DNA of 64,000 bases from Mercurialis annua (lineage: Eukaryota > Streptophyta > Magnoliopsida > Malpighiales > Euphorbiaceae). Made by a program: the position numbers and the translations under genes. Location: NCBI RefSeq assembly GCF_937616625.2, contig NC_065577.1, forward strand, positions 24,813,501 through 24,877,500. The letters run 5' to 3'. The notes under the pieces are model-generated. The model was not told the origin of the DNA. It saw nothing but the letters and a program-made list of their open reading frames with translations, and did no database searches. Shown in pieces: positions 11,262 to 54,733 of this stretch; positions within the stretch are counted from its first letter, which is position 1; every line of letters begins with the position of its first letter.

Positions 11262-11469
11262 TGTAACACCCCGTATTTTTTCGGCTTGTTACGATGAGTT
11301 TTTCAATGTGTTTTGGGTTGATGTTTGGTGGTTTAGTTCCGTGGAACTTTGGTTTAGGTTGCACAATAGTTATTTCGATGTTTGGGCTTGTTTTAAGTGT
11401 GGTTTGGGCCGTGTGGATCGACCTTGGGCTTAAGGCCGAGAAAATAAATAATTTTGGAAGCAGGGGGTG

Positions 11470-11568
11470 TATCACGGGCGTGACAGGAGCATCACGGTCG
11501 TGATACACCATCACGGCCGTGATACACCATCACGGCCGCGATTCAGTCATCTCGGGCGCGACGCGGCA
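11470..11568 (+). repeat. GC-rich palindromic array, E1 5' LTR
   Basis: Near-palindromic units ATCACGGTCGTGAT, ATCACGGCCGTGAT and ATCACGGCCGCGAT, spaced 19 bases, just upstream of the TATA box. This LTR has one 19-base unit more than the 3' LTR. Confidence 0.85.
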
Positions 11569-11589
11569 CTGTAGGGTTCACTATTTTGA

Positions 11590-11598
11590 TATAAATAG
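11590..11598 (+). promoter_or_regulatory. TATA box, E1 5' LTR
   Basis: TATAAATAG, a strong plant TATA consensus, about 330 bases into the LTR and directly after the palindromic array. Confidence 0.65.
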
Positions 11599-11861
11599 CT
11601 CCTTAACTCGATTCTTTCAGCCCTTTTTCACCCTATCAGATCTAATGCGACCCTACACTCAGATAAACCCTATTTTTATCATTCCTTTATGATCCTTGAT
11701 GGGTTTTAACAATTGATTGGTGATTGTTTATCCGTTTTGCGATTTCTACGCGTTTTGCTTGTGGTGTTCTTCGTTGGTGTGATTGTGACTCTTGTTGCTT
11801 CTGGTCCAGACCCTTTCCTAAGGTTTAATACTTATATAATCTTGTTATTCTCCATTCTAAG

Positions 11862-13660
11862 GTAATGATTTCCATCTCTTATGTATTGGTAAATCATTGT
11901 CATGTGTTTTGCGTAGAATTGCATGATTTAGGGTGTTTTGGAGTTTGGAACTTTATGATTAATGGTCTGAGATTTATGATTTGAATATTATGTTTTAAAT
12001 GGAGTTTAATATGATTATAATATGATGTATCATGATTGGAATTGGATTTGCATGATTAAAACAACGAATTGGCTAATTCTAGGTTTGTATGAAATTGATT
12101 CGTTTAGTGAATTGTTAAAGTGTTGAATCTGAGTTATTTGGGATATTATGTGGTTATACTACAATAGCTAATGATCTAATCAGTTAGGATCTAGAAGTGA
12201 GAATTGGGTTTGATCTATGTTGTAAAAATCTCTACGATTTGTGAAATTGACAATTTTACGAAAGTTAAACGCTACGATTGCAAATTGGTTTTCAAATGCT
12301 ATACCTACTGATCTAATATTTTCTATATGATGTTTTGATGTTTTTAAATCAGTAGTATCATACTTTGGTTCATCGATTGTTGGTTTTGAATCGTTTGGCT
12401 AGTTTAGGCAATTTTCGGCAAATTGCCAAATTTGATTATTTGAGTGCTTTGGCTTAATATTGGTTTTGATCAAATTTTTAATGGATGTAAATATGTTTTA
12501 TAAACTATTTTGGACATTTATAAAATGTCAGTTTTATCTTATGTTGTTTGGTAATCGATGGTTGAAATGGTATATAAGTTATGGTCAATTTTACAAAAGT
12601 GTTATGGCTATATAATTTAATATTTCAGATTTAAGTTTAAACCTTTAAAAGGTGTTTAAATCCAATTGATTGCATTTATGGTGACATTTTTAAGTGATGT
12701 ATACTTTGGGTGAAACTTGCCAAGTGTTGGCAAGCTATGTGGCTTATTGCTTTTAAGGTTGGCATTGTTAAGCTAGAGATTGAGTTTTTATTTTCAAATG
12801 ATTTTGGTTTTATATATGGATTGGTTTTAAAATCTGGTTTTCACTTTAGCTTATGGTTGGGTCGGGTTAGACTTGGGTCGCCCGACATGTTGTGTTGAGC
12901 TATACTGCAGTTAAGGTTAACACACTACTTTGGAAAACTCTTTGGTTTAAAAGAACTATTTAAATTATGGAAAGGAATTCGGTTTTGTTTTGAAGGATAA
13001 GAACTCATCTAAGCTAACTTGCCTAAATTGTTTAAAGTGAATGATGTGAATTCTTTGGTTTGTTTGTTACATGGATGTTTACCTTACTTGGGTTGTACGT
13101 TAGTTGTGTTCAAGATGCTAGTCCTATGTGGTGTATAGTATTCTTAGAGTTAGGGGTTGAATTGATTTTAACTTATGCTTTATTTCTTAGACCCGTTGAC
13201 TGCTCGTGCTTCGAAGTCGAACCAGGTTTAGTTGCTTGCCAAGTTATCACGTGGATTCGCAAGCAGTGAGTTTATAGTGTTATTTACCGCTTTATTAAGT
13301 ACCGCAATTATTTTAGTATATCAAATGTTTATGAACTGTTTTAAGCGATTATGGATCTGGATTGAAACGAGCTACTCGATAGGCTAGTATCGAGACTGTG
13401 TGCACCGGTAAGTACTCTGGGATCGGCAGACTAATGTCTTGCTTACGCTGGTATATGACGAGGATTTATTCCCGTCCACTCTGGGTTTTCAGTATGCTAT
13501 GTCATACTTACGCTGGTATCATTTCAATACTGTATTTCCGTAATCTTATATATATTAGTATAAAAGGATTTGTTTTAACGGTTTTAAACTTAATAAATGT
13601 AAATAGCATTATGAACTCATCTCAGTATATCTGACCCCGTTGTTTTCCCAATTTTTCCAG
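11862..13660 (+). other. putative LTR-internal intron, E1 5' LTR
   Basis: Donor CTAAG|GTAATG at 11862, about 270 bases after the TATA box. Acceptor with a long pyrimidine tract (TTTTCCCAATTTTTCCAG) ending at 13660. The acceptor phrase is nearly identical in the LTRs at 1-2546, 35675 and 44721. Confidence 0.4.
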
Positions 13661-14103
13661 GCTTATGATTTTGAGAGCGTTGGTTATCTCCGATTTCTTT
13701 GATTCCTCGGAGGTTTTTATGTTATTTCAAACTAGTCAACTGTTTTATACTCTTAGACCGCAGTAGAACTAGTTAGTCATTTATGATTGTTTTATACTTT
13801 GGTTTGTCGGAGTGGTCCGACTATATTTTCATCGATGTTGGCATGTTATACATTGGGTTTGATTTATATAAGGCATGCTTATATTCTCGGGTTTTAGCCG
13901 AGCATTTCAGATATTTAAGTTATTTATTTAAGTTGTTATATAAACTGCTAGATTCAGGTTGTTGTATCGGTTGCCCCCGAACAGTGTTTTCTGCAGGTTT
14001 AAGTGTTTGAATGTTTATCCGCGAGGCTTGCTACGGGTTTTGGTACGACCATACCCATACCCTAGCGCCGGTCGCGATCCATGAAATTGGGTCGTGACAA
14101 AGT

Positions 14104-14115
14104 TGGTATCAGAGC
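14104..14115 (+). other. E1 primer-binding site (tRNA-Met)
   Basis: TGGTATCAGAGC four bases after the 5' LTR, complementary to the 3' end of initiator tRNA-Met, as in chromoviruses of the Tekay/Del type. Confidence 0.9.
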
Positions 14116-14335
14116 TTTGGTTTCAAACCAAGGCCATTTTGCATGTTATGTGCTTACTTATTTAAGGCATGCTAAGTGTTGTTGTTGTGTCATAGGATCT
14201 ACTGCGGAATTAGGATTCAAGTCTTGTCTTTTGAAACGTCATCTTTTGTTTTCAAAACTTTCTACCTTCACCTATAGGAATGTTGAGTGTCGGTCTTATG
14301 TGTTACTGATGCTTTATTTTGAAATGTTTATTGCT

Positions 14336-16296: not shown

Positions 16297-16499
16297 AATT
16301 GTGCCCAGACATATCATGAACATGCATTTTTGTATGTCACGAATAGGGGATTTCATTGAGCACTAAGTATGTTCACTAAATAATAAGAAAATAAGTAATT
16401 TGTACATGCATAATGGTACATGCATCACGTGCATTGAAATGGTTAGAGTTGGATGCAACTCTTTGGGGATGAGAGGTGTCATCACCCTGGCACACAATT
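16297..16499 (+). other. shared RNA-like module, E1 copy
   Basis: 5' arm AATTGTGCCCAG (16297-16308) can pair with 3' arm CTGGCACACAATT (16487-16499). Just before the 3' arm is hairpin GATGA-GAGGTG-TCATC (16468-16483). The same arrangement is found in E3 (41693-41890) and E2 (52375-52536), in otherwise diverged sequence. A cis-acting RNA function such as packaging or dimerisation is my inference. Confidence 0.6.
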
Positions 16500-18534
16500 A
16501 TGTAAAATGGATTTCAACAATAAAGAGTTTTTGAGAAAAATGTTTTGAAACGAACTCGCGAGTCACTTTGGGATAAACGTATTTATAAGGTTGGATTTCA
16601 AATGATTTTGAAACTGTTATTGAAAGGTAGCTAGACAAAATACTCTATGATGATGGTGGTGAATTGAGGACGATTATGTTATGAGTGGTTGGTTTGTAGT
16701 ATCATAAATTTTGTACTTGGTAGGGAGCAAGAATGAATATAAAATTGCAGTCGAGTTATTGTTGTAATAAGTATGATAGGATTTTGAGGTCGGTTTGGAA
16801 GGCTTTTGTGTTAGCTTCCGATTTATGATTTGAGGTTATTAGATCAAGGGATTCTGTTATGCTCGACGTGTGTGTTTACGCCGTGATTTTAAAGGAAGTT
16901 TGTTTTTACATATTCGTTTTTGTATAATGTTTTGGTATACTCGTATAAAAAATATTGTGTGGAAAAAAAAATATTTGCTTTACAAATATTTTCTATTTTG
17001 ACAAAAGGATAAATTTTTATCAAGCATTGATTTAAAGAGAATAAAAAATTTGTTAGTTGAACTATTTTATATATTTGCAAACTTATATTGAAAGTAAGGT
17101 GTAACTCCGGAATTCAAAATACGGATATTTTGAAAATGTTGATGTGTTTACAAATTTGAGGTTTTTCCAATAGTAAAAGTATTTTGATTTTAAATATAAA
17201 AGGAGTTATAAGATATTAAAATCTTTTAAAGAGAAGTGGGAAGTTGTAATGTTTTGTGATTTGAATTATTTCCCTATAAGTTTGGTTTTGAGCATAACCA
17301 ATGACTCGATTACGGGTGAATGTGATCTAGATGATCTCTTCTTAGCAAGGTTACAGTTATATTTGGTGAAACAATTTTGAGAATTTTAGTTTGGTTCGGA
17401 TTTATGAGTTAGTTGATTTGAGAATCGCGATGAGTAGGTTTCGACAACAAAGGTTGGTTGGTCAATACTGATTGTGAATTTTTGTTGTTAAAAATTTAAT
17501 ATCGTTTCGTTTGATTGTTGAACATTTTGTGTGCGGAATAAAAATTTGGTTTGTGTAATAAAAAATTGTATGTATGTTGGTGTTAGTTACTTTGGGTAAC
17601 TTCGGGATGTATGCTTTCTTATTGTATGAGTGGAAGGATCATTCTGAATGAGTCGGTTTGTATGTAACTTGGAGATTCGTTATCATAGCTTAAAGTGATT
17701 TATTCTTTGGAATATCCGTATGTGAGTATGTGTTTATTGATTCGTTAAGGTTGATGGTCTTGTCGAGCTTAGTCCTTGTCGTGTGTACAACTCGATTTTC
17801 ATGATGTTTTAAAGTTGGCTGATTTATATTGGTGAGAACCTTATCTAGTTAATTATTTACTAGACCGTTCGTTTGATATGACGAGTTTATTTATATCTTT
17901 GATATGGGATAAAAGGTGTAGAGATGTTAAGTAGGTGGCAAGGATTGCATGATGTTATTAATGGGGATTTCGAGGTTTTCATTTGAAGTATTAGATTTTG
18001 GTATTGTAAGAATTGCGATTTGAGTTTCGGGCTTGTCCTTGCACCTTGTCAAGGTTGTCTTGATAGCTGTTAGAACTCGAACTAGTTTAGTAACCTTCCT
18101 TGTGAGTATGTTTAATATTTATAGTTGAATAATCTTGGAGGTTTATATTTTGTTTAATCAAGTAATAGTTGGAGTATTGAACTGTCGAATTTATAATTTT
18201 GCACATACGTGGTGTGGAAATTTGAGTTGTTGTTTTATGTAAGTGGTGATTTGAGTTATCATTCGAGGTACAACGTGTCGAGTTGTGGTTACGCAAGTGC
18301 GTAGGTTGATGAGTGGAGGTATGCCTATGGTTTGAGTTTTATTTGGTTATATAGTTGGCGAGTATACTTAGGGGACGGAGTCCATTATGTGGAATTGTTA
18401 TCTTTCATTCCTTGAGGTACGTAGGGTTTAGCGCTGCTTCGAATGTTCGATGCTATTTTAGTACTTTGGATTTGTGTTATATGTTCTACTTTGGTTGCTT
18501 TGTGCGCGTATATTGTGTTTTGTGCTTTGTGTTA

Positions 18535-18571: not shown

Positions 18572-21390
18572 TGTAACACCCCGTATTTTTTCGGCTTGTT
18601 ACGATGAGTTTTTCAATGTGTTTTGGGTTGATGTTTGGTGGTTTAGTTCCGTGGAACTTTGGTTTAGATTGCACAATAGTTATTTCGATGTTTGGGCTTG
18701 TTTTGAGTGTGATTTGGGCCGTGTGGATCGACCTTGGGCTTAAGACCGAGAAAATAAATAATTTTGGAAGCAGGGGGTGTATCACGGGCGTGACAGGAGC
18801 ATCACGGTCGTGATACACCATCACGGCCGCGATTTAGTCATCTCGGGCGCGACGCGGCACTGTAGGGTTTGCTATTTTGATATAAATAGCTCCTTAACTC
18901 GATTCTTTCAGCCCTTTTTCACCCTATCAGATCTAATGCGACCCTACACTCAGATAAACCCTATTTTTATCATTCCTTTATGATCCTTGATGGTTTTTAA
19001 CAATTGATTGGTGATTGTTTATCCGTTTTGCGATTTCTACGCGTTTTGCTTGTGGTGTTCTTCGTTGGTGTGATTGTGACTCTTGTTGCTTCTGGTCCAG
19101 ACCCTTTCCTAAGGTTTAATACTTATATAATCTTGTTATTCTCCATTCTAAGGTAATGATTTCCATCTCTTATGTATTGGTAAATCATTGTCATGTGTTT
19201 TGCGTAGAATTGCATGATTTAGGGTGTTTTGGAGTTTGGAACTTTATGATTAATGGTCTGAGATTTATGATTTGAATATTATGTTTTAAATGGAGTTTAA
19301 TATGATTATAATATGATGTATCATGATTGGAATTGGATTTGCATGATTTAAACAACGAATTGGCTAATTCTAGATTTGTATGAAATTGATTCGTTTAGTG
19401 ATTTGTTAAAGTGTTGAATCTGAGTAATTTGGGATATTATGTGGTTATACTACAATAGCTAATGATCTAATGAGTTAGGATCTAGAAGTGAGAATTGGGT
19501 TTGATCTATGTTGTAAAAATCTCTACGATTTGTGAAATTGACAATTTTACGAAAGTTAAACGCTACGATTGCAAATTGGTTTTCAAATGCTATACCCACT
19601 GATCTAATATTTTCTATATGATGTTTTGATGTTTTTAAATCAGTAGTATCATACTTTGGTTCATCGATTGTTGGTATTGAATCGTTTGGCTAGTTTAGGC
19701 AATTTTCGGCAAATTGCCAAATTTGATTATTTGAGTGCTTTGGCTTAATATTGGTTTTGATCAAATTGTTAATGGATGTAAATACGTTTTATAAACTATT
19801 TTGGACATTTATAAAATGTCAGTTTTATCTTATGTTGTTTGGTAATCGATGGTTGAAATGGTATATAAGTTATGGTCAATTTTACAAAAGTGTTATGGCT
19901 ATATAATTTAATATTTCAGATTTAAGTTTAAACCTTTAAAAGGTGTTTAAATCCAATTGATTGCATTTAAGGTGACATTTATAAGTGATGTATACTTTGG
20001 GTGAAACTTGCCAAGTGTTGGCAAGCTATGTGGCTTATTGCTTTTAAGGTTGGCATTGTTAAGCTAGAGATTGAGTTCTTATTTTCAAATGATTTTGGTT
20101 TTATATAAGGATTGGTTTTAAACTGTGGTTTTCACTTTAGCTTATGGTTGGGTCGGGTTAGACTTGGGTCGCCCGACATGTTGTGTTGAGCTATACTGCA
20201 GTTAAGGCTAACACACTACTTTGGAAAACTCTTTGGTTTAAAAGAACTATTTAAGTTATGGAGAGGAATTCGGTTTTGTTTTTAAGGATAAGAACTCATC
20301 TAAGCTAACTTGCCTAAATTGTTTAAAGTGAATGATGTGAATTCTTTGGTTTGTTTGTTACATGGATGTTTACCTTACTTGGGTTGTACGTTAGTTGTGT
20401 TCAAGATGCTAGTCCTATGTGGTGTATAGTATTCTTAGAGTTAGGGGTTGAATTGATTTTAACTTATGCTTTATTTCTTAGACCCGTTGACTGCTTGTGC
20501 TTCGAAGTCGAACCAGGTTTAGTTGCTTGCCAAGTTATCACGTGGATTCGCAAGCAGTGAGTTTATAGTGTTATTTACCGCTTTATTAAGTACCGCAATT
20601 ATTTTAGTATATCAAATGTTTATGAACTGTTTTAAGCGATTATGGATCTGGATTGAAACGAGCTACTCGATAGGCTAGTATCGAGACTGTGTGCACCGGT
20701 AAGTACTCTGGGATCGGCAGACTAATGTCTTGCTTACGCTGGTATATGACGAGGATTTATTCCCGTCCACTCTGGGTTTTCAGTATGCTATGTCATACTT
20801 ACGCTGGTATCATTTCAATACTGTATTTCCGTAATCTTATATATATTAGTATAAAAGGATTTGTTTTAAGGGTTTTAAACTTAATAAATGTAAATAGCAT
20901 TATGAACTCATCTCAGTATATCTGACCCCGTTGTTTTCCCAATTTTTCCAGGCTTATGATTTTGAGAGCGTTGGTTATCTCCGATTTCTTTGATTCCTCG
21001 GAGGTTTTTATGTTATTTCAAACTAGTCAACTGTTTTATACTCTTAGACCGCAGTAGAACTAGTTAGTCATTTATGATTGTTTTATACTTTGGTTTGTCG
21101 GAGTGGTCCGACTATATTTTTATCGATGTTGGCATGTTATACATTGGGTTTGATTTATATAAGGCATGTTTATATTCTCGGGTTTTAGCCGAGCATTTCA
21201 GATATTTAAGTTATTTATTTAAGTTGTTATATAAACTGCTAGATTCAGGTTGTTGTATCGGTTGCCCCCGAACAGTGTTTTCTGCAGGTTTAAGTGTTTG
21301 AATGTTTATCCGCGAGGCTTGCTACGGGTTTTGGTACGACCATACCCATACCCTAGCGCCGGTCGCGATCCATGAAATTGGGTCGTGACA
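18572..21390 (+). repeat. E1 3' LTR
   Basis: TGTAACACCCCG start and GGGTCGTGACA end, 2819 bases, near-identical to 11262-14099. TATA box TATAAATAG at 18881-18889; putative intron 19153-20951 with the same donor and acceptor. The palindromic array (18780-18860) has one 19-base unit fewer than the 5' LTR. Confidence 0.95.
18881..18889 (+). promoter_or_regulatory. TATA box, E1 3' LTR
   Basis: TATAAATAG, identical to the 5' LTR copy. It could drive transcription outward into the downstream satellite. Confidence 0.6.
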
Positions 21391-25835: not shown

Positions 25836-25840
25836 ACCTT
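25836..25840. repeat. target site duplication ACCTT (left)
   Basis: ACCTT, matched by ACCTT at 35260-35264. Both belong to the satellite phrase CACCTTTTTAGC. Confidence 0.9.
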
Positions 25841-26430
25841 TCTCACGACCCAATCTCATGGGCCGAGACCGGCGCTAGGGAATAGGAATAGTAGCTCAGA
25901 AACCCGTAGCAAGCATTAAAAAATGTAAAATAATTTTTTGCAAATAATACACATATCATGCATGGCAGTCACATACACGTGTCATGCAATAACATGCCAG
26001 GACATACATCTCTGGCAATCACAAGCGGTAATAGCGCAGCAAACACATTATACACAAAAGATTAAAATATCAGAGTTATATTTTCAGAAAACCGTTGATA
26101 CAAAATAAACTAAAAACATCTATCTAATGCAGCTCTAGAAGTAAAGTACTGTTTCTTTATATACTTTCAAAATATCAGACTTCTGAGTCAAGGATAGAAG
26201 TCCATTGCTTCAAAATTTCTTTTCACCTGAGCGGGAAAACTGTGAGGGGTCAGTATATGGGAATATACTGAATGAGTTTATATATTTACTCATAAGTATT
26301 CATATAAAACATAAAACAATGCAATAACATTTAAATCACGTGTAGCCAAGTACAAGATCCGATTGAAACCTTAATCCTCGAACATGCCAAACATATATAA
26401 TCAAATCAAATTGATCCAAATGATCCGGCC

Positions 26431-26552
26431 CCGGGATAACTCAACCGCGTCAGCCGCGACCAACCTCTTATTCCCAAGTTGTTGGCCTCGGGATAACTCA
26501 ACCGAGTTCAACCCACTATATACGGGTCTTGAGATAACTCAACTGAGTTCAA
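26431..26552 (-). repeat. three-copy LTR motif, chromovirus version
   Basis: Three imperfect copies of the phrase CTCGGGATAACTCAACCGAG (plus TTCAAC). It occupies the same place upstream of the putative acceptor as the triplets at 511, 37698 and 45278, and is a diverged version of them. The 5' LTR copy is at 33770-33893. Confidence 0.65.
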
Positions 26553-27202
26553 CATCATATCTACTATTCACATATCCAACTTTCATATTCGTATACATAA
26601 TCAAGTCCACAGCTGTAATAAATCAAACTGGTGATCACGCAGTCCAATTGATGCCCAATAGGTAGCACGTTCCATCAGATCAATACTTGTTCTAAACGAA
26701 CGAGTATGCAATTCACAAAAAGAATTCGCGTTGGAAACATTCAAATCAAACATAAAGCAATATAAAACGTTTGCTTATACAAAATACTTATTTAAATGGT
26801 TTATAAGTAAATAAATATAAACTCACTAAAAACGCTATCCAAATTTACTTCGATGCTCAGAAATCGTCAAGCTTCCCGAGCCCCTTCTTCAGCTGCTGTC
26901 TGCCCCACCGGATCTAAAATGATTTCAAAACAATTGACTCACATCTGAATCCTATTCTAGGATTGATTCTAGACTTGAGACTCAATAAATTAAACTTATC
27001 GACTATCGTGCTTCTCACGTGTTCAATCCCGATTAACGATTTCTAACTCGTTTTCGGTTCGATATCGCTTTTCCGAACAATTCTCAATTAACCTCTTTCG
27101 GTTAACGACTCAAATTAATCAATAATCAATTGATAACTAATCGATTTCAATCTCGATACGTGAATACGAACAAATTTCTCAAAATGAATGACGAGCCGAT
27201 TC

Positions 27203-27390
27203 ACTATGCGTGCGCGCGTCTGCCTGTGCGGTTGCACAGGGGACTGTGGGCCCGCACAGTCTGACGGTGCGCCTGCATAGTCTCAAGACTGTGCGCTCGC
27301 ACAGTTTCCTGTGCGCCCGCACAGTAAGTAGATTGTACGCTCGCACAGTTTGGCTATGCGCGCGCACAGCAAGGTTGGGAGGCGCACAGC
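27203..27390 (-). repeat. GC-rich palindromic array, chromovirus 3' LTR
   Basis: Many units of the type CTGTGCGCxCGCACAG with CGCGCGCGCAC cores. The 5' LTR counterpart (34543-34662) has fewer units. Arginine- and cysteine-rich frames across it on both strands are artefacts of composition. Confidence 0.85.
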
Positions 27391-27753
27391 CTCGGGTTTT
27401 CGCCCCGGGCTCAAATTCGACATGCTTATGCCTTAAAAATGCTCCCATCACGCTCATATACGTTTATAACACGTAATCTAAGCTCAAAATGCTATAAATT
27501 GATCCTAAATCGTTAAAACGATAAAACTGTTCCGTGGCCTAAAACTTTAACTTGATATCTAATCAAATTAATCCAAATTAACAGTACAACAACGTGCTTA
27601 CCGTGATTCGCCACTGATATACGATCGATTCGAGCTATAGAACGTCGAAAACGGACGAGAAGCGGAGATCGAGCGAATGAAACGATGAACTGACGATGGA
27701 ATGAAAGGAATAGAGATATGAGGTTCTGGATCATTCCTTTTCAAATGAAGGAT

Positions 27754-27766
27754 TATATATATATAT
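27754..27766 (-). promoter_or_regulatory. putative TATA box, chromovirus 3' LTR
   Basis: TATATATATATAT about 340 bases into the LTR. The 5' LTR has a longer TA run at 34896-34919. Confidence 0.45.
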
Positions 27767-28104
27767 GGCTAATTTTCTCTTTGGTCCTTGAAACTTTTCA
27801 AAAGTTGCAATTTAGTCCAAAACATATCCGCGTCGAAATTTTAAACGGTCTCCGATTGACTCGAAACTTTTACAGTAAATACAATTAAATATTTCGTGGA
27901 CTTTGGCGAAACAATTATTAACTCGGGATTTATACTTTATTTCATATTAATTTTCTAAGGTTTTCTCTCAAATCCCGATAATACGCTTAATAAAAATTAT
28001 TCTAAAATTCCTATATTATTAAATTAAATTCATCTTAATTTAATTTATCGGAATTCACGACACGTGGCACGACTTAATTATTTTAAAATATTTGGGGTAT
28101 TACA

Positions 28105-28120
28105 TTCACCCCCCCCTAAA
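28105..28120 (-). other. Chromovirus polypurine tract
   Basis: Minus strand TTTAGGGGGGGGTGAA directly before the 3' LTR. Confidence 0.85.
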
Positions 28121-28122
28121 AC

Positions 28123-28140
28123 AAATTCGTCCTCGAATTT
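28123..28140 (-). other. hairpin before polypurine tract, chromovirus
   Basis: AAATTCG-AGGA-CGAATTT, a perfect 7-bp stem, overlapping the pol stop codon (28139-28141) and lying 3' of it. Same position as in E1, E2 and E3. Confidence 0.55.
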
Positions 28141-28285
28141 AAAACTTTAGCCACGTAACTTGAGTGAATAAGTACGGGTATTTCTGCCTCATATCCTCTT
28201 CTATTTCCCACGTGCATTCTTCTACGGATTGACTCTTTCAAAGAACTTTTACCATTGGAATCTTCTTTGTCCGTTGTTGTCGTAC
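28139..28285 (-). pseudogene. pol C-terminus: chromodomain remnant
   Basis: Downstream of an in-frame stop at 28286 the same frame continues with a chromodomain-like segment: basic VRQQRTKK, then PMVKVL, a stop (28238-28240) where the family has tryptophan, then SVEECTWEIEEDM and KYPYLF. The stretch after the lost tryptophan matches the conserved C-terminal half of group II chromodomains (EEATWE type), which direct chromovirus integration to marked heterochromatin. Both stops are inactivating. The pol frame ends at TAA (28139-28141), inside the pre-PPT hairpin region. Confidence 0.75.
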
Positions 28286-29458
28286 TTACGTGTCAACAAT
28301 CTGCACGGGTTGCTCCTCATAGGTTAGTTCTTCACCGACGTCCACCACTTGCGGTTGGATTATTCGAGAAGGATCAGATATATATTTCCGGAGCATATAA
28401 ATATGAAAGACAGGATGGACTTGTGACATCTCCGGTGGAAAGTCTAGCTTATAGGCAACTGAGCCTATATGCCCTACGATCTGATATGGTCCAACGTATC
28501 TTGGATCTAACTTACCCTTCTTTCCGAAACGAATTATGCCTTTCATTGGCGATACTTTGAGGAAGACATAATCTCCAACTTGAAATTCACCGTCCTTTCT
28601 TTTAGGATCCGCATAGCTCTTCTGTCGACTGAAAGCTATATTCAAACGTTGCTTTAACAATGGTACTTTCTCGGACGTAATCTGGATAATTTCGGCTTCT
28701 GTCAATTTTATTTTTTCAACTTCATCCCAACAGATAGGGGATCGACATTTACGCCCGTACAATGCTTCGTGTGGGGCCATCTCAATGCTCGAGTGGTAAC
28801 TATTATTGTAAGAGAACTCGACTAAAGGTAGATACGTGTCCCAACTACCTCCGAAATCTAACACACATAATCGAAGCATGTCTTCTAGCGTTTGAATCGT
28901 TCGCTCAAATTGGCCGTCCGTATGAGGGTGAAAAGCAGTGCTGAAGTTCAATCGCGTCCCTAATGCTTCTTGTAAGCTTTTCCAGTAGTGAGACGTAAAT
29001 ATGGAACCTCTATATGAAACGATTGACATTGGAACTCCGTGTAGGCTTGCGATCTTATCTATGTATATCTGAGCTAATTTTGCTGCCGAATGTGTTTTCT
29101 TGATAGGTATAAAGTGCGCTGATTTTGTCAAACGTTCCTCGATTACCCAAATGGAATCAAAACCCTTTTGCGTTTTGGGAAATCTGACCACGAAATACAT
29201 CGTGATTTGTTCCCACTTTCACTCTGGGATGGGCAACGGCTAATGAAATCCGTCGGGTCGCTGATGCTCTAACTTGACTTGCTGACAAGTCGGACATTTT
29301 GCCACAAATTCCGCGATGTCTTTCTTCATTCCACTCCACCAGTACGTTGTCTTGATGTCATGGTACATCTTCGTAAAACCAGGATGAACACTATAAACCG
29401 TTCCATGAGTTTCTTCCATGATTTGTTGTCTCAAGTTGTCAATGACTGGTACGCACAA
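28286..29458 (-). pseudogene. pol: integrase (zinc-binding, core and GPY/F domains), inactivated
   Basis: The HHCC zinc-binding part is readable from 29458 (HPGFTKMYHD, then CPTCQQVK). A stop at 29240 separates it from the core, open to 28286. The DDE triad is broken: the first acidic position reads ITMYFVV (family has Asp) and the second SIVSYRGS (family has Asp), both Tyr here; the Glu of GQFERTIQTLEDML is kept. The C-terminal GPY/F module is clear (GKLDPRYVGPYQIVG), followed by VHPVFHIYMLRKY. A stop at 29459 precedes the zinc-binding part. Strand transfer would be impossible from this copy. Neighbours are RNase H upstream and the chromodomain downstream. Confidence 0.9.
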
Positions 29459-30234
29459 TCAATTGCCATATCTTAATACGCTGTTGACCATACAAATTTT
29501 TTGACTCTTTCCTTGTTGTACTTCCTCAATTAGATGTTTTAATTGAGGGTCGTCCAATTGCAACTCTTTAATTTGGTCTATCAACGTTGATTTTATAATT
29601 AACTGAGCCATCAGGTTTCCAAGAGATAAAACCTCAAACTCTAGTCCTTGGCAAAACAACGTATGTATTTCTTTGAATAATGGTCGCCGCCATGTCGTTG
29701 CAATTTGCGCGAGACTTCCTACTGATTTTCTACTCAGCGCGTTCGCCACTACGTTGGCCTTGCACAGATGGTATTGTATAGTACAATCATAATTTTTTTT
29801 AACTGCTCTATCCATCTCCTTTGTCTGAAGTTTAGTTCTCATTGATTGAAGATGTACTTTAAACTCTGGTGATCTGTAAATATCTCGCATGTTGCGCCGT
29901 ACAAATAATGTCTCTAGATCTTTAGCGCGAAAATCACCGTTGCAAGTTCTAGATCATGAGTCGGATAGTTCGTTTCGTGTTTCTTAAGGTGTCGCGAGGC
30001 ATACGCGATCACTCGACCATGTTTCATTAGGACATATCCTAGTCCAACTCTTGATGCATCACAATATACTGTGAACCCTTTCGTTCCTTCTGGTAATGCT
30101 AGATATAGCGCTGTTGTCAGACACTCTTTCAGTTTCAGGAAACTGAGTTCACAATGATCCGTCCAGTTAAATTTGGCGTTCGTCTGAGTTAACTTCGTCA
30201 GTGGTACAACGATCTTTGAGAAATCTTGTACGAA
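29459..30234 (-). pseudogene. pol: RNase H domain, inactivated
   Basis: Follows RT after a stop at 30235. Readable are [30 protein letters not shown], a stop at 29914-29916 (Trp in the family), RHYLYG, a further stop at 29839-29841, then a frameshift in an A-run at about 29797-29804 after which the frame 29459-29890 is correct (CTIQYH, ANVVANALSRKS). The conserved ANVVADALSR phrase has Asn for Asp. The domain degrades the RNA strand during reverse transcription. The N-terminal third of the frame 29459-29890 is a shifted reading and is not genuine protein. Confidence 0.85.
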
Positions 30235-31143
30235 TCATCTGTAATATCCCGCTAAACCGAGGAAACTTCGTATTTCGGTAACCGAGTCAGGTCGTTTCAA
30301 TTCCATTACAACTTCGATCTTCTTTGGGTCATCCTTAATGCCACTTTGGGACACCACATGACCCAAGAAAGCTACTTCCGTTAGCCAAAATTCACATTTA
30401 GAGAATTTTGCATACAGCTGATGTTCTCTTAACGTCTGTAGTACTATTCGTAAATGTTGTTCATGCTCTTCTTCCGTACATGAATAGATTAAAATGTCGT
30501 TGATAAACACGATTACGAATTTGTCCAAGAAAGGCTTCAATACTCTATTCATAAAATCCATGAATGTTGCTGGCGCATTGGTCAATCCAAACGACATAAC
30601 GAGAAACTCGTAATGTCCGTATCGAGTTCGAAAAGCAGTCTTCTGAATGTCATCATCGTGAATCTTCAGCTGATGATTACCTGAACTTAAGTCAATCTTG
30701 GAAAGGTACTTCACTCCTTGTAACTGGTCGAACAAATCGTCGATTCTCGGTAACGGATACTTGTTCTTGATCATCACTTTGTTCAATTGTCGATAATCTA
30801 TACAGAGTCAAACCGATCCATCTTTCTTTTTCACAAACAGCACTGGTGCACCCCATGGGGATACACTCGGTCTGATAAAGGCACGATCAAACAACTCTTC
30901 TAATTGATGTTTTAGTTCTTTGAATTCTGCAGGTGCCATACGATAAGGAGGTATCAATATCGGTTTCGTGCTAGGAGCCAATTCGATACAGAACTCAATC
31001 TCATGATCTAGGGGTAATCCAGTTAGTTCTTCTGGAAAAACGTCTGGATATTCCGATACCACTTGTACATCGCTTAAGTTTACGCGTTTCTTCTCCACAT
31101 CTCGTACTATGGCTAGAAATCCTTGACATCCTTTTCTCAACAT
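30235..31143 (-). pseudogene. pol: reverse transcriptase, inactivated
   Basis: Contains the protease-RT linker (EYPDVFPEELTGLP), fingers motifs (SPWGAPVLFVKKKDGS), a stop at 30808, then [48 protein letters not shown], the active-site region and FLGHVVS. The catalytic YxDD-type box reads FINDILIYS: the first Asp of the usual IDD is Asn. A second stop ends the frame at 30235 after FLGLAGYYR. Both stops replace positions where the family has Arg and fit CGA to TGA. Upstream (31144-31235) is a linker with a frameshift near 31237 and a stop at 31219-31221. Confidence 0.93.
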
Positions 31144-31235
31144 ACGACAGGCTTTAATAGCTGAAACGATACTCGTAGAAGATTCTGTCTTGTCACCCTG
31201 AATTGAAACTAGTTCAATTCAAGGCATGTTAAACA

Positions 31236-31556
31236 TTAGGTCTTCGTTCGACAATCCACATTGGCATAGTGATGAGCCAGCCAATCCATTCCTAGTATGA
31301 CATCAAAAGCTAATACTTCAAGTAATATCAAATCCACCATCAAATCCCGTCCTTGAACTCTCACATGACAAGAGGGATAAAGAATACTAACCTCCACACT
31401 ATCTCCTACAAGGGTGGCTACTGACATTGAATTCTTAGGGTATGCTGGTTGCACTCCTAATTTACTAGCAAAGCTAGGCGAAACAAATGAATGCGTAGCA
31501 CCCGGATCAAACAAAACTAATGCGTCTTGAGAAGCGATAGGAAATGTACCTTGCAC
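31236..31556 (-). pseudogene. pol/gag-pol: aspartic protease
   Basis: Retropepsin-like domain with LFDPGATHSFVS as the active-site box (family DSGATHSF; Ser changed to Pro next to the catalytic Asp), followed by SILYPSCHVRVQGRDLMVDL and the hydrophobic VILGMDWLAHHYANVDC, typical of plant gypsy proteases. It would cleave the polyprotein. The frame ends at 31236 through a one-base shift that breaks the link to RT. Upstream the gag linker has stops at 31668-31670 and 31752. Confidence 0.88.
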
Positions 31557-32936
31557 AACAGCATTGGAAGCCTGAGCCTCTTGAGGATTTAGCTCAAAAA
31601 CCCTAGCCTGACTTCCACCACCCTGTGAAGTCTGACCAGTACCGCGACCTCCACCATTGCTTCCTCCTCAATTGGCATAACCACGGCCCCTCTTGCCAGT
31701 AAATGTACTTCCCATCTGATCATACCCTGATGTTGCCTGCTGTGTAGTCCTCTATTGTTGATAGGAAGGTTGCAGTACTGTAGTTATTGATCCATGAGGC
31801 ATCTGCCTCGGACAATCTCTAGCAAAATGACCCTGTTGGCCAAAGTTGAAACACGCTCCTGAGATGCTACGACACACTCCATAATGCCTCTTGTTGCAGT
31901 TCAGATAAATAGGTGCTCCGCCTCCCATGTCACTCACTGATCTGGCACCAAATCATGTGCCTGATGCACTAACTCGAGATCCATGTCGAGTCCTCTTGCG
32001 TTCCCGCTGGTGTGGTGTAGGTCGAGAGTAACTCCCAACATATGACTGGGCAGGTGCGCTCTGTACTCTGCGAAACGTATTACTTCTCATGGGTGTAACA
32101 TTGGAAGGATCAGGAATCCTTCAAAATCGAATAAGAGAAACTTCCATTTGTCTGGCGCTGTCAATCAGTTGCACCTGAGTCATTCCAATATCAGATGTCA
32201 GACTCACAAATTTGGGTCCTAAACCTTCTACAAACCTTGAATTCACCCTTACTGGATCTGCAGTCAGGTAGGGTGCAAATCTGCTCGCTCTAGTAAACTC
32301 AGTCACATATACTTGCACAGATCAATTGCCTCTACTCAGAGTTAGCCACTGACCATGATAGCTCTCTATTACTGCAAACGGTAGGAAATACTCCCTAAAA
32401 TGATTCGCAAACTCAGCCCAAGTCATAATGTCCATCGTTGGCTGAATATGGCGCTGAAACCAATCCTTTGCAGGTCCTCGTATTGACATTTCCACCGTAA
32501 TGATGGACTGTCTCTCGTTAGCTTGCGAACGTCGAGCGTCACGTTCTACTTCTTCCAAGAAGAATAGAGCATCCTCAGAGCCGTCAAAATTAGTTAGGTT
32601 AAGGCGCATGTGAGCCATGACAATATTTCGATCGGTGTAAGCAACATTACGTAGTTGTTGCTGCTGTAGTTGTTAACGATGCATATACTACACCTCAGCC
32701 TGATTAGCATGCATAGCCGCAATTCCCTTAAGAATCTAATTTAGGTTAAAACCTAAGACATTTGGTTGTTGAGCTTGCGCTTGCACTCTAGGTGCCTGAG
32801 CATGGGCTTCTTGGCCTCCACCTACTCCATGAACAGAAGACTCATCTTGAGCTTCTGGGAGTACATAATGTGCTCCCTCAATGACGTTTTGTGCTGCAGC
32901 GGCAGCTCGTTCTTTCTCTTGTCGTTGGTCAGACAT
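31557..32936 (-). pseudogene. gag: capsid and nucleocapsid, inactivated
   Basis: The probable start is MSDQRQEKERAAAAAQN at 32936, one base after a consensus acceptor (TTGTCTTATTCAG|G), so the longer upstream frame to 33011 is probably leader. Capsid homology is strong: FDGSEDALFFLEEVER, IRGPAKDWFQRH, WAEFANHFREYFLP, then VYVTEFTRASRFAPYL and RFVEGLGPKF. A CCHC knuckle is present but broken: CFNFGQQGHFARDC has Phe for the second Cys. Stops interrupt at 32736, 32688-32690, 32673-32675, 32322, 32121, 31953-31955, 31752 and 31668-31670; nearly all fit C-to-T change of Gln or Arg codons. Confidence 0.88.
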
Positions 32937-32937
32937 C

Positions 32938-33050
32938 CTGAATAAGACAAACAATGTTACGTAGCCGCATAAACGCATATCATCACAACATAAATCGTAT
33001 ATAGCGCGCATTTCATCACATGCAAGTAATCACACTTATGACAGACTCAC
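32938..33050 (-). other. putative leader intron before gag
   Basis: Minus-strand donor-like GAT|GTGAGT at 33050 and strong acceptor TTTGTCTTATTCAG at 32938, immediately before the gag ATG. About 113 bases, a normal plant intron length. Other upstream donors, including the LTR donor, could use the same acceptor. Confidence 0.35.
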
Positions 33051-33184
33051 ATCCTAGAGGGAAACCTGGAAGTTGGAAAATCAAACGAATACTTAACAAA
33101 GACAAGACTCGAATCCTATGTGCTGCAGTAGAATCCTAGGAAAATCGATCACTCTTCCGACATAAGCAATGGTAGCTGGACTAT

Positions 33185-33196
33185 GCTCTGATACCA
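33185..33196 (-). other. Chromovirus primer-binding site (tRNA-Met)
   Basis: Reverse complement reads TGGTATCAGAGC, four bases inside the 5' LTR boundary. Confidence 0.92.
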
Positions 33197-33200
33197 ACAT

Positions 33201-35259
33201 TGTCACGACCCAATCTCATAAGCAGTGTTAGCTCCGAAACCCGTAGCAAACCTTAAATAATGTAAAATAATTTTTCACAAATAATACACATATCATGCAT
33301 TGCACACATACACGTGTCATGCAATAACAAGCCAGGACATACATCTTCCTCTGGCAATGACAAGCGATAATGACGCAGCAAACACATTATATACAAAAGT
33401 TTAAAAAATCAGAGTTATATTTATAGAAAACTGTTGATACAAAATAAACTACAAACATCTATCTACTGCAGCTTTAGAAGTAAAGTACTGTTTCTTTACA
33501 TACTTTCAAAATATCAGACTTTAGAGTCAAGGATAGAAGTTCGTTGCTTCAAAATTTCTTTTCACCTGAGAGTGAAAACTGTGAGGGGTCAGTATATTGG
33601 AATATACTGAGTGAGTATATATATTTACTCATAACTATTCTTATAAAACATAAAACAATGCAATAACATTTAAATCACGTGTAGCCAAGTAAAAGATCTG
33701 ATTGAAACCCTAATCCTCGAACATGCGAAACGTATATAATCAAATCAAACTGATCCAAATGGTCCGACCCCGGGATAACTCAACCGCGTCAGCCGCGACC
33801 AACCTCTTAATCGCAAGTTGTGGGCCTCGGGATAACTCAACCGAGTTCAACCCACTAGATACGAGTCTCGGGATAATTCGACCGAGTCCAACCTCGTATC
33901 TACTATTCACATATCCAACTTCCATATTCGTATTCATAATCAAGTTCACAGCCGTAATAAATCAAACTGGTGATCATGCAGTCCTATTGACGCCCCATAG
34001 GTAGCACGTTCCATCGGATCAATACTTGTTTTAAACCAACGTGTATGCAATTCACATAAAGAATTCGCGTTGGAAACATTCAAATCAAACATAAAGCAAT
34101 ATAAAACATTTGCTTATATACAATACTTATTTAAATACTTTGAAAGTAAAAAAAATATAAACTCACTGAAAACGCTATCAAAAAATACTTCGGTGCTCGG
34201 AAATCGTCAAGCTTCCCGAGCCCCTTGTCCAACTGTTGTCTACCCCGCCGGAACTAAAAAGATTTCAAAACAATTGACTCACATCAAAATCCTATTCTAG
34301 GATTGATTCTAGACTTGAGACTCAATAAATTAAACTTATCGACTATCATACTTCTCACGTGTTCAATCCCGATTAACAATTTCTAAGTCGTTTTCAGTTC
34401 GATATCGCTTTTTTGAACAATTCTCAATTAACCTCGTTTGGTTAGTGACTCAAATTAATCAATAATCAATCAATAACTAATTGATTTCAATCTCGATACG
34501 CGAATACAAACAAATTTTTCAAAACGAACGACGAGCCGATTCACTGTGCGTGCGCGCGTCTGCCTGTGCGGTTGCACAGGGAACTGTGCGCGCACAGTTT
34601 ACTTTGCGCCTGCACAGTCCATAGACTGTTCGCTCGCACAGTTTGGTTGTGCGGCGCACAGCCTCAGGTTATCACCCCTGGCTCAAATCTGATGTGCTTA
34701 CGCCTTAAAAACTCTCCCATCACGCTCATATACGTTTATAACACGTAATCTAAGCCACTGAAATACGATCGATTCGAGCTATAGAACGTCGAAAACACAC
34801 GAGAAACGGAGATCGAGCAAATGAAACGATGAACTGACGATGAAATGAAAGGTATAGAGATATGAGGTTCCAGATCATTCCTTTCAAAGATGAGTATTAT
34901 ATATATATATATATATATGTCTGGATAATTTGCACTTTGGTCCTTGAAACCTTTCAAAAGTTGCAATTTAGTCCAAAACTTATCCGCGTCCAAATTTTAA
35001 ACTGTCTCCGATTGACTCGAAACTTTTACCGTAAATACTATAAAATATTTTACGGACTTTGCCAAATAACTATTAACTCGGGATTTATACTTTATTTTGT
35101 ATTAATTTTCTAAGGTTTTCCCTCAAATTCCGCTAATACGCTTAATATAAATTATTCTAAATTTTCAATATTATTAAATTAAATCCATCTTAATTTAATT
35201 TATCGGAATTCAAGACACGTGGCATGACTTAATTATTCTAAATTATATGGGGTATTACA
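33201..35259 (-). repeat. Chromovirus 5' LTR
   Basis: 2059 bases, TGTAATACCCC at 35259 to GGGTCGTGACA at 33201 on the minus strand. Shorter than the 3' LTR through loss of about 128 bases near 34756 (including the putative donor), a smaller palindromic array (34543-34662) and other small gaps. A long TA run at 34896-34919 is the likely TATA region. Confidence 0.93.
34543..34662 (-). repeat. GC-rich palindromic array, chromovirus 5' LTR
   Basis: Same CTGTGCG/CGCACAG units as 27203-27390 but about a third shorter. Confidence 0.8.
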
Positions 35260-41890: not shown

Positions 41891-43966
41891 ATGCAAAATG
41901 GATTTTATCGATAAAGTGTTTTGAAAAATGTGTTTTGAAAAGAGCTCGTGAGTTACATTGTGATAAAGTTATTTGTAAGTTGTGGGATTTCAAATGATTT
42001 AAAACTGTTACCGAATGGTAGCTAGACAAATACTTTGTGATGATGGAGATGGATATTGAATGTTTACATTGAGAATGAATGGTCTGTAGTATCAGAATCT
42101 TGTGGTTATAAGTAGGAATGATATTTGAGGTTGCGCTCGAGTTATTGTTGTGCCAAGTGCGGTGTATGGTTAGATTCAGACTAGGAAGTTTCGTGAATAT
42201 TTTCCGGTTAGTGATTTAAGATTTGTGGATTAAGGATATTGGCTATGCTCATATGTATGCTTACACAACATTTTGTTTAAACGAAACATTATCTTTTCAG
42301 AGTTGATTTTGTCCAAGTGTTTTTGGTATATTGATATAAAGGTATTTTCATCAACAAAGAGATTTGCTTTGCAAATTTTACCCTTCCGAGTAAAAAAGAA
42401 ATTTTGGCAAATTTGATTCAAAAGGAATTATAAAGTTTTTGCTGAACGATTTCTTTAAATTGTATTTTTGTTTTAGAGAAAAATTTGGAAACGATTTAGA
42501 CTTTGGATGTGCGAAACATCAATGTGTATTTCAAAACGAAGGATTTTTCCACAGTTTGCGTATTTTCGAAAGAGGAATAAACTTATTTTAGTAAATTTGA
42601 TTTACAGGTAACATAAATTTTGTCAGTTAAACTGTTTCACAAAATTTCAAACTTATTTTAGAGTAAGAAAAATCTGTGAATTCAAAATGCGAATATTTTG
42701 AAAATTTTCAAGGGTTTACAAAACTAATGGTTTTTCGACTGTAAAGCATTTTGATTATTTAATATAATAAGGAGGTGTTAGACGTAAAGTCTTTTAAAGA
42801 AAAGTGAAAAAAATTTGAATATAAAATGTTAGAGGATAACTAACAATCCGTTCAGGGTGAATTGGTCGTATTGATCTCTCGTTGTATACGAGGCAATTGT
42901 CAATTGATGAAATAATTTTATGAATTTGAGTTTGATTTAGATATATGAGTTAGTTGATTCGAAATCGAAGATCGTGGTTAATAGGTTTCGACAACCAGAA
43001 TCGGTTGATCGATTTCGTTGATTAATGGTATTATTGTAATGTTTGGGTCAGTGGTTGAACCCTTGGTATGGGCGATTTTTTTTTTAAGTTGTGTAGTATA
43101 AGTGAGATGCAGTCGATGTGCAGTTTAATGGCGGCGTTATGTTTCTAAATGATTGAAGGAATCATTTTGATTGAGATTGTTTATGAGTAAATGATTGAAG
43201 GAATCAAATTTATCGCCAAAGTAAAATCCGATGTATTTTATCGAACCAAAAATTCCTAATCCTATATACTCTAACTAAAAGATAATAAGATTTAATGTCG
43301 ATTTATAATTTGGGTCTTTCATTAATGGTTTATTGAAGAATTTAGTCAACAAAAATACACTGAAATGATAGATTTGAAACAAAATTAAAGTTCGTGCCTT
43401 TAAATGGCAACTTTTAAAGGTCATGATTAAAATGAAACTTTGTGTAAAGTTCGTGATTTTTTTAGGAATTAACCCTTTTTATTATGAGTTAAGTTCACAA
43501 TTCCTTGGGAATAACAATATGAGTTTTTGTGTTTTGGATCGGATGATTCTTTGTAGTGTTTGTTTTGGAACCGAAATATTATCCAAGGTATATTGGGTTT
43601 TGTTATCGATTGTTTTGATGTCGATCTTGTTATAAGTGGAAGAAAGTAGGTGTTTTAGAACACAAGATTTTATCAACTTGTGTTTTCGGTTTTCCTGTTG
43701 AGACGATATAGTTTGAAATTGTAAGAATTATATTTGAGCTTAGGGCTTGATTTGCACTTTGACATTGAGGATTTTATAATCAATAAGATTCGAGCTGGTT
43801 TTGAAAGCCACTCCAGTACAGAGTAGTTGTGACTCTCAGTTGGAAATTCATTGTTTATTCACATTGCGTTGATCAAGTAATAGTTGGAGCACCAAGTCGT
43901 TAGACTCAGAATTTTTGCGCATATGTGTGTTGTGACCGTTTCAACTGCGGATCAGTTTTAGATTTT

Positions 43967-47252: not shown

Positions 47253-47709
47253 TGTAATACCCCAAAATAATTAATTAGCTAATTGGACCACGTGTCCAAT
47301 TTTGATTCGCCAGAGTGGCAATATTAGAAGAATTTCTGAAAAGATAAAGTAAATAAGTTTCAAGTAGGTCGGTTTTGGGAAATTAGTTATGCGGAAATCA
47401 AGGTTATATTTCAATTCTAAAGTAAAATTGGAATTAAAAGGAAAAATGTTAAGAAAAGCCTAGAATAAAGTGCAGGGACCAAAGTGGTAATTTAGCCACT
47501 TTATGTCGAAAATGGAAATTTATAAATTTTGACGGGAAAATATTAATATTGGGATTCGTATTGTTTATCGGATATAAATAATACTTATAAGTCATAATAA
47601 AAGAGTTTATCGATTTAGGTATGGACTAAATCGTACGAAAGAAAAGTTTGAAAGATAATTGGTAACAAATGAAGAAATTAGGGGTTAAATTAACAAATTA
47701 GCCAAGTGA

Positions 47710-47718
47710 TATATAAAT
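47710..47718 (+). promoter_or_regulatory. TATA box, E2 5' LTR
   Basis: TATATAAAT about 460 bases into the LTR; identical at 55191-55199 in the 3' LTR. Confidence 0.55.
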
Positions 47719-48099
47719 GAGAAGATATGAATAAGAAGAATCAGAAGGAGAAGTGAAGAACGATCCAGAACGTCAAAAACCCTTCGATCAAGTTCGGTTG
47801 CTCGCCGTTTCTCCGTTCGGCGTCCGTTTCAGACGATTTTCACGGCGATCTCTTCGGAATTGAAAGCTCCATCTTTTCCGGGGCATCAAATCAAGGTAAG
47901 AGATCGATATATGGTGCGAAAACAGTAGGTTTGGGGCTGTTTCTTTTTAAGATTTGAGATTAAGCTTAAAATTGTTGGTTTTGATGTTTTTGGATTGTAG
48001 AATGATAGAATAAGTGTTTAAATGAAGTGGGTATGTATTGGTGTGAGTTTAGGGAGTTTTAGAGCCCCGGAAATGGTCCGGAAGTGCCGGAAAAACGCT

Positions 48100-48250
48100 G
48101 CACACGTCGGTGCACGACGTGCTGCACTTCAGCACGTCGTGCAGGCTCACGACGTGCACCACAAGGGTGCACGACGTGCACCATGAAGGGCACGACGTGC
48201 CCTTCGCAAAAATTGAAGCGCACGACGTGCCAAGGTGACACGACGTGCCC
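48100..48250 (+). repeat. GC-rich palindromic array, E2 5' LTR
   Basis: Repeats of GCACGACGTGC with GTGCACC linkers. The left end forms a perfect 14-bp stem: TGCACGACGTGCTG (48111-48124) and CAGCACGTCGTGCA (48130-48143) around a 5-base loop. The 3' LTR copy (55581-55754) has one 22-base unit more. Frames across it on both strands are composition artefacts. Confidence 0.88.
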
Positions 48251-50295: not shown

Positions 50296-50307
50296 TGGTA
50301 TCAGAGC
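50296..50307 (+). other. E2 primer-binding site (tRNA-Met)
   Basis: TGGTATCAGAGC four bases after the 5' LTR, as in E1 and the chromovirus. Confidence 0.92.
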
Positions 50308-54718: not shown

Positions 54719-54733
54719 ATAAGGGGGGAAGAA
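54719..54733 (+). other. E2 polypurine tract
   Basis: ATAAGGGGGGAAGAA immediately before the 3' LTR. Confidence 0.85.

Follow-up and report, generated by a model that had tools for sequence, protein, structure and literature searches.

A conserved RNA module followed by a palindrome of switching sequence: a candidate dimerisation and packaging region in pol-less LTR retrotransposons of Mercurialis annua

HIV-1 subtypes are known to use different palindromes. Both of the HIV-1 palindrome hexamers occur in passages of PMC5874298, which describe retroviral dimer sites (HIV-1 SL1, MuLV SL-A and MMTV Pal II) as short palindromes that lie in, or are presented as, small hairpins and that form a kissing loop and then an extended duplex; according to the same passages, these sites are found mostly in the 5' leader, with that of FIV perhaps in gag. 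In the yeast Ty3/Gypsy element Ty3, deletion of the DS/PAL6 site (CUGCAG, nt 391-396) abolishes 5' RNA dimerisation in vitro, as reported in a section of PMC11381356. The cis signals for movement of Ty1 and Ty3 have been delimited to the ends of these elements, and packaging of Ty3 is also dependent on UTR or POL sequences (PMC4974528, in part). Among plant elements, LTR elements with gag only have been defined as the TR-GAG class (an extract of PMC6022998), one of which transposes in Arabidopsis ddm1 according to an extract of PMC8704663.

The window, by which we mean the whole 64,000-nt stretch of Mercurialis annua DNA analysed, holds three retroelement copies (E1, E2 and E3) that share a non-coding module closed by a terminal stem, P1 (Table 1). 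The region formed by this module and a downstream palindrome would resemble retroviral dimer sites in the shortness of its palindrome, but it lies 1.2-2.7 kb after the primer binding site (PBS) and has about a dozen palindromes within one genome. Ty3 PAL6 is the closest known site and is, as here, a G/C-rich palindrome, although PAL6 is near the 5' end and Ty3 encodes Gag and Pol. A dimerisation site would be expected near the 5' end of the genomic RNA; because this region is not there, and because we infer its function from sequence, it is called dimerisation/packaging-like and is placed outside the known site families.

Table 1. Coordinates, in the window, of the module and its surroundings in the three copies, with a pol-bearing relative for comparison
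Feature	Position	Strand	Remark
E1 5' LTR	11262..14099	+	98.2% identity to 3' LTR
E1 primer binding site TGGTATCAGAGC	14104..14115	+	from sequence; presumably of tRNA-Met type
E1 5' arm of terminal stem P1	16292..16308	+	pairs with 16487-16504
E1 conserved block CAUGCAUCA, holding palindrome AUGCAU	16419..16427	+	position read from sequence
E1 hairpin P3 (AGAGUUG/CAACUCU)	16445..16462	+	pairing probability 0.93 in E1 and E3
E1 core hairpin P4, GAUGA-N6-UCAUC	16468..16483	+	pairing probability 0.97; identical in the three window copies
E1 3' arm of terminal stem P1	16487..16504	+	pairs with 5' arm
E1 palindrome ACTCGCGAGT	16554..16563	+	sole G/C-rich palindrome of at least 10 nt in the 4.47-kb interior
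E1 polypurine tract GGGGAGAA	18564..18571	+	from sequence
E1 3' LTR	18572..21390	+	pair of 5' LTR
Pol-bearing relative, without module	25840..35259	-	RT and Tf2-1-type SH3 domains; gag homologous to F6 gag
E3 5' arm of P1	41690..41704	+	
E3 core hairpin P4	41859..41874	+	
E3 3' arm of P1	41878..41893	+	
E3 AGCTCGTGAGTT, at the palindrome's place	41943..41954	+	self-complementary only if G-U pairs are counted
E2 5' LTR	47253..50291	+	target-site duplication GTACA flanks E2 on both sides
E2 primer binding site	50296..50307	+	from sequence
E2 gag-like ORF, 372 aa	50726..51844	+	
E2 5' arm of P1	52368..52385	+	
E2 core hairpin P4	52505..52524	+	
E2 3' arm of P1	52525..52543	+	
E2 palindrome GCTGCGCAGC	52583..52592	+	sole G/C-rich palindrome of at least 10 nt in the 4.44-kb interior
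E2 polypurine tract	54722..54733	+	region common to other families
E2 3' LTR	54734..57225	+	

An initial sequence-only reading of the window had located three copies of the module with paired ends, an invariant hairpin GATGA-N6-TCATC (P4) and, in E1 and E2, a distance of about 2.1-2.2 kb from the PBS. Our analysis bears this out: the window has three occurrences of the 18-nt core GATGAGAGRTGTCATCAC, where 0.01 would be expected, P1 pairs in E1, E2 and E3, P4 is the same in all three, and the PBS-to-module distance is 2.19 kb in E1 and 2.07 kb in E2. The position given to the module stood and its 3' limit did not, as the conserved region continues up to the palindrome in E1 and E2. A compensatory change of C-G to U-A, also pointed out at that stage, is real and is one of five P1 pairs that have changed on both sides (columns 8, 9, 10, 12 and 21) in the alignment of E1, E2 and E3 (A1). 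Sliding the structure gave six alternative versions, each with a lower score than the real one (covariation of 0.02-0.14 versus 0.31). No inverted repeat ranks above P1 in any of the three interiors, which measure 3.3-4.5 kb, and its location corresponds between them; taken by itself, its inverted-repeat score does not stand out from block shuffles for E1 and E3. The mean pairing probability of P1 in E1 is 0.95 for the outer 12 bp and 0.35 for the inner 4 bp, and the folding z-scores of the three window modules are -3.3, -2.1 and -4.9. Hairpin P3 is not kept as such in E2 and, despite its good form in E1 and E3, pairs in only 67% of cells across 54 distinct copies. A further stem, P2 (AUCAU/AUGAU in E3, AUCGCAU/AUGCGAU in E2), was rejected as a general feature, with pairing probabilities of 0.01 in E1, 0.50 in E3 and 0.80 in E2.

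The surroundings of the three copies have several features of their own. E3 is an incomplete copy, with no PBS after the LTR upstream of it. The LTR ends of E1 are intact and its flanks (11252-11261 and 21391-21400) are without a target-site duplication, unlike those of E2, which suggests recombination between elements. Within the 5' LTR of E2, the minus strand of 48811-49344 contains a 177-aa ORF which, by eye, resembles a gag piece of another retroelement; this stretch is probably a nested insertion, because the match between the two LTRs of E2 breaks at 48825-49402. A diverged 60-bp tandem repeat (consensus AAACGTTTGGATTTGTTTCGTAACG...) forms arrays at 2547-9330, 21392-25744, 39990-41180, 44488-44719 and 57421-63934, which cover more than a quarter of the window in both orientations, with E1 and the E3 fragment among them.

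The carriers of the module belong to several families: F1 (E1 and E3), F2 (E2), F3 and F4 (mutually related), F5, F6 and F7 (one or few copies each). Flanks of the module align inside the F1, F2 and F3/F4 groups and not between these groups (E 1e-10); an F5 locus (L062) has part of its downstream flank in common with F2. The module itself aligned in 9/10 pairs of E1, E2, F3, F4 and F6 (blastn, plus strand, E 1e-4), the exception being E2 with F6. Besides the module, these representatives align mainly over the PBS leader and over the polypurine tract (PPT) with the start of the 3' LTR, except that F3 and F4 align over most of their length and that there is one 37-nt match between F4 and F6. The start of the module ranges from 1.2 kb (F4, L092) to 2.7 kb (F6, L091) after the PBS. 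Interior length is nearly constant, at 4.38-4.47 kb, in F1 (E1, 14100-18571), F2 (E2, 50292-54733), F3 (L069) and F4 (L092), though most of the sequence is unalignable, which perhaps reflects a size constraint; the F6 interior (L091) is shorter, at about 3.6 kb. The F3 LTR parts of L069 have an identity of 99.95% across 2,053 bases and, therefore, at least one family has moved recently. In one F1 copy (L066), an apparent LTR end takes the place of the 5' stem arm of the module, through a deletion that fused the two, and the stem is lost.

None of the 92 loci read contained pol by tblastn with the pol pieces of the pol-bearing element in the window (72 of these loci were of 3-10 kb, and five repeat a copy). 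Gag-like sequence was present upstream of the module in 43/43 F2 loci and in F3, whose gag-like ORFs are of about 300 aa with 33% identity to the ORF of E2 over 174 aa. The E2 ORF is below the Pfam cut-off for Retrotrans_gag (E 0.094) and has 38% identity to F6 gag over 93 aa. Gag-like sequence is in pieces in F4, and in two pieces in L070 (F6), where a zinc knuckle can be made out by eye in the second; the gag of F6 matches that of the pol-bearing elements in the window, L093 and L094. For F1, neither gag nor pol was matched in E1 or in any of 15 F1 loci, and E1 has no ORF over 133 aa. The claim that the interiors are non-coding is hence correct for E1 and not wholly so for E2, and a description as three non-coding elements is too narrow because several families carry gag-like sequence. 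With LTRs, PBS, PPT and a gag-like ORF and without pol, F2 and F3 agree with the definition of TR-GAG elements, though at gag scores short of the Pfam cut-off, and F4 and F6 are TR-GAG elements in broken form, having gag-like sequence in pieces and no pol. F1 agrees with the definition of large retrotransposon derivatives, LARDs (LTRs and a kilobase-sized interior without coding domains), as E1 is large, non-coding and without pol; this likeness is by description only, and the conserved region here differs in being a short module common to families with gag-like sequence. The TR-GAG descriptions, in the extracts of PMC8704663 and PMC6022998 considered, mention no conserved RNA module or palindrome. 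In the open-licence PMC literature, we found no report of a covariation-backed conserved RNA structure in plant LTR elements.

A search of autonomous relatives with the model, suggested by the sequence-only reading, went against a shared signal. R1 detected no module in any of three pol-bearing copies, which comprise that of the window and two others whose gag-pol frames span 1,634 and 1,649 aa, and the best R1 matches inside the pol-bearing element of the window were on the opposite strand with E values of 0.17 and 1.2. None of 10 pol copies was within 10 kb of a module, a weak result as only about 0.75 would be expected by chance; these 10 came from 150 scored of 5,021 candidates and are those falling within the stretch listed. 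The pol-bearing copies (window, L093 and L094) have a palindrome in the 5' leader about 55-81 nt past the PBS (TCCTAGGA; in L094, GACTCGAGTC), possibly a dimer site of their own.

The genome search covered one species, in the 451-Mb Mercurialis annua assembly, where the window is C55:24813501-24877500. A 29-place core pattern had 1,700 exact matches (864 forward and 836 reverse) and its reversed control none; a core search of viral contigs gave 0 matches. A covariance model derived from E1, E2 and E3 found the whole module in 68/68 loci, 38 of them picked for their resemblance to E1 or E2 and the other 30 through the core pattern, in position order on C1. Alignment A3 comprises 56 copies, the additions being L070 and twenty short loci with unusual core strings among the matches listed; copies picked by the core pattern are bound to keep P4. 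Some loci are repeats (L001 is E1, L009 is E2, L030 is L047, L040 is part of L069 and L044 is part of L092), and these enter the 68-locus model count, the P3 cell count, the flank, gag/pol and identity counts and the larger of the two centre counts given below; they are absent from the 55-copy and 40-copy palindrome counts.

Three families show that the module is conserved above its surroundings. Mean pairwise identity was 0.939 in the module versus 0.816 and 0.778 in its 400-nt flanks for F2 (43 copies), 0.886 versus 0.648 and 0.761 for F1 (15 copies) and 0.870 versus 0.676 and 0.673 for F3/F4 (9 copies). In F1 and F2 the conserved block extends about 150-200 nt beyond the module. F3/F4 have a second, separate stretch of equal conservation (0.83-0.93), at 550-800 nt from where the module starts, and, therefore, their module is a local peak and not the sole one. 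P4 and the preceding block GCAACUCYUUGG are nearly invariant, AUGCAU is present in 55/56 modules (about 4.8 in shuffles; E3 is the exception) and CAUGCAUCA(Y) in 47/56. No open frame runs through the module, with stops in 18/18 frames (six frames of E1, E2 and E3, with 30 nt added on each side). A decayed coding segment, which had been held up as the alternative, thus fails on these stops and on the excess of conservation over the adjacent flanks in the three families examined, and a coding origin is rejected.

For stem P1, the evidence concerns the helix and not its individual pairs. Over 50 distinct copies, 717 of the 750 cells in 15 P1 pairs are standard pairs; four of the 56 copies, without anchors (L066, L071, L080 and L085), and two duplicates were excluded from the covariation tests and from the count of one-sided departures given below. 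When the same substitutions were dropped randomly on a tree, 1 of 2,000 runs reached the observed pairing with either of two trees. This set of 15 omitted two stem pairs, one of them poorly paired, which favours the stem; hence, the comparison was repeated with 16 pairs (3 and 5 of 2,000 runs) and with all 17, for which it is weaker (25 and 38 of 2,000 runs). By an R-scape-like per-pair statistic with a tree-aware null, no pair was significant: the best P1 pair had an E value of about 13, the top-scoring pair of all (E 2.2) lies outside the stem and six other pairs outscore the best stem pair. Both-sided changes on single branches numbered 2, and pair-breaking events 16 versus 16.9 in the null. 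One-sided departures from Watson-Crick pairs led to G-U in 19 cases and to A-C in 7, an excess which fits pairing of a plus-strand RNA better than a DNA structure. The covariation expected across many copies is therefore found for P1 as a whole, which beats the tree-aware null, and not for any single pair, as some non-stem pairs score as high; P1 is supported as a helix, and its individual pairs are unproven.

The clearest covariation lies downstream of the module. A perfect G/C-rich palindrome (at least half G/C) of at least 8 nt is found 25-72 nt past the 3' end of the model in 49/55 copies, versus 3.3% of shuffles, and one of at least 10 nt in 43/55, versus 0.36%; control windows of equal size around the module gave 0/56, 0/56, 1/36 and 2/36. 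This count omits one of the 56 copies (L089), whose flank is too short, and the 25-72-nt stretch was chosen after a view of 36 of these copies. A clean test is provided by 40 further copies, the first 40 by position of 49 unread among the matches listed: 34/40 have a palindrome of at least 8 nt and 24/40 one of at least 10 nt, whereas shuffling a 60-nt stretch gives 3.1% and 0.3%; five of nine F6 loci (L135, L136, L138, L141 and L142), taken on the wrong strand, are left uncounted. The palindromes are of 8-12 nt and comprise 14 distinct strings in the 55 copies and one more in the further 40, or about a dozen after merging of shortened F1 forms. F1 has ACTCGCGAGT; F2-like copies have GCTGCGCAGC, GCTGGCCAGC, GCTAGCTAGC or GCTGATCAGC; F3 has the 8-nt CCAGCTGG; F4 has GCTTGCGCAAGC, GCTTGCAAGC, GCCTGCAGGC or CCTGCCGGCAGG; and the F5 copy L081 and the F7 copy L082 have CTGGTCGACCAG and GTGAGCTCAC, respectively. 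As in E1 and E2, the palindrome of F4 is the only G/C-rich one of at least 10 nt in the whole interior; that of E3 sits inside the P3 hairpin and that of the pol-bearing element inside the pol region. F6 has no palindrome in the expected stretch and none of 10 nt; TAGGCCTA occurs about 100 nt further on in L070 and L091.

The centres of these palindromes are self-complementary in 53/55 cases when arms GCT and AGC are required and repeated copies are removed (57/59 before removal). They comprise GCGC (40), GGCC (9), AGCT (2), TGCA (1) and GATC (1), the remaining two being AGCC and CACG; the two middle bases change jointly and read C-G, G-C or, in a single copy, A-T. F1 shows almost no variation at the centre (CGCG 39, CACG 1). 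On all three counts (49/55, 34/40 and 53/55 centres) self-complementarity is kept while the letters change, as expected of a dimerisation site, with F6 as the exception. The middle bases are adjacent and unable to pair within one molecule, yet they covary, which points to an intermolecular contact. A DNA-binding protein would conserve the letters and a hairpin would be indifferent to its loop, whereas contact between two identical RNAs would explain both observations; the switching palindrome favours dimerisation specifically. Predicted duplexes have energies of -11.7 to -26.7 kcal/mol, versus 0 to -4.1 for the hairpins.

A cis-acting RNA role, for which the sequence-only reading had named packaging and dimerisation, is supported by the conservation of the module, the retention of the P1 helix and the switching palindrome, and we think that module and palindrome together are probably the cis-acting dimerisation and packaging region of these pol-less LTR retrotransposons. 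Two element RNAs would first touch via the palindrome downstream of the module, either by a kissing loop or by forming an extended duplex at once. Next to it, the closed module, comprising P1, P4 and the conserved blocks, would be bound by Gag, either the element's own or that of a relative, and the Gag-bound RNA dimer would enter a virus-like particle, where the Pol of a helper may reverse-transcribe the packaged RNA from the PBS and PPT. Two families count against dimerisation and packaging: F1 is without detectable gag and F6 is without a palindrome in the usual stretch. A packaging signal would also be expected to be common to the presumed helper. If the module were read by the Gag of a helper then it should be present in helpers, and all three pol-bearing relatives scanned are without it; hence, the Gag of such a helper would have to manage without the module.

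Module-free helpers would be reconciled with the proposed function if the Gag were private or if the region served dimerisation only. Carried further, the module and palindrome could be a mid-genome psi-plus-dimer region belonging to the pol-less elements themselves and read by their own diverged Gag, with the palindrome repeatedly replaced in a symmetric manner so that each subfamily pairs with itself; Gag and packaging would then be separate from those of the helpers, reverse transcription would be shared, and pol-less elements and pol-bearing helpers would have only leader, PBS and PPT in common. We put this forward tentatively, as a possibility that we rather doubt.

It is unlikely, in our view, that the module is instead an RNA-stability element. 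The RSE of RSV is a 400-nt element immediately downstream of gag (a section of PMC5580461), and the modules of E2 and F6 are likewise past gag-like sequence, starting 524 nt after the stop of the ORF in E2 and about 370 nt beyond the point where the gag piece of F6 (L070) ends, so that such a role is possible for the gag-bearing families. However, the RSE lies directly after the stop and binds PTBP1, with no switching palindrome mentioned in that section of PMC5580461. A stability element needs no palindrome of switching sequence, and F1 (E1 and E3) keeps the module without detectable gag. A role in nuclear export, localisation or the binding of a host factor, with the palindrome serving a purpose other than dimerisation, is also improbable: the strongly conserved core and the additional conserved blocks do resemble a protein-binding site, but self-complementarity kept under changing letters would be left unexplained.

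A ribozyme or a captured cellular non-coding RNA might be suspected from the compact structure and nearly invariant core, and is very improbable given that no Rfam family reached its gathering score anywhere in the window (the E1 and E2 modules gave weak matches far under the cut-off at a relaxed threshold) and that no hammerhead core was seen by eye. Insertion of a foldback MITE or small transposon into several LTR elements, whose terminal inverted repeats would mimic the stem and which would account for inverted-repeat ends and high copy number, is the least plausible reading and was rejected: independent insertions with unique flanks were not found, as flanks co-align with those of other family copies (except upstream in L062, upstream in L066, through its deletion, and on both sides in L070, which aligns with L091), E1-E2 similarity continues somewhat outside the stem (E 0.017), no target-site duplication is visible by eye at the module edges and the palindrome is outside the inverted repeats.

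Pol-less LTR retrotransposons are common in plants, and how their RNA is selected for particles is poorly known; more generally, the return of the proteins of transposable elements to their own copies is described as poorly understood for retrotransposons in a passage of PMC8704663. The dimerisation and packaging region proposed here would be a signal of known type at an unusual location, and what appears new is the switching palindrome downstream, with its unusually clear natural covariation. As a candidate signal the region is short and localised, its core has about 1,700 matches in one genome, and its natural symmetric palindrome replacements are ready-made compensatory mutants.
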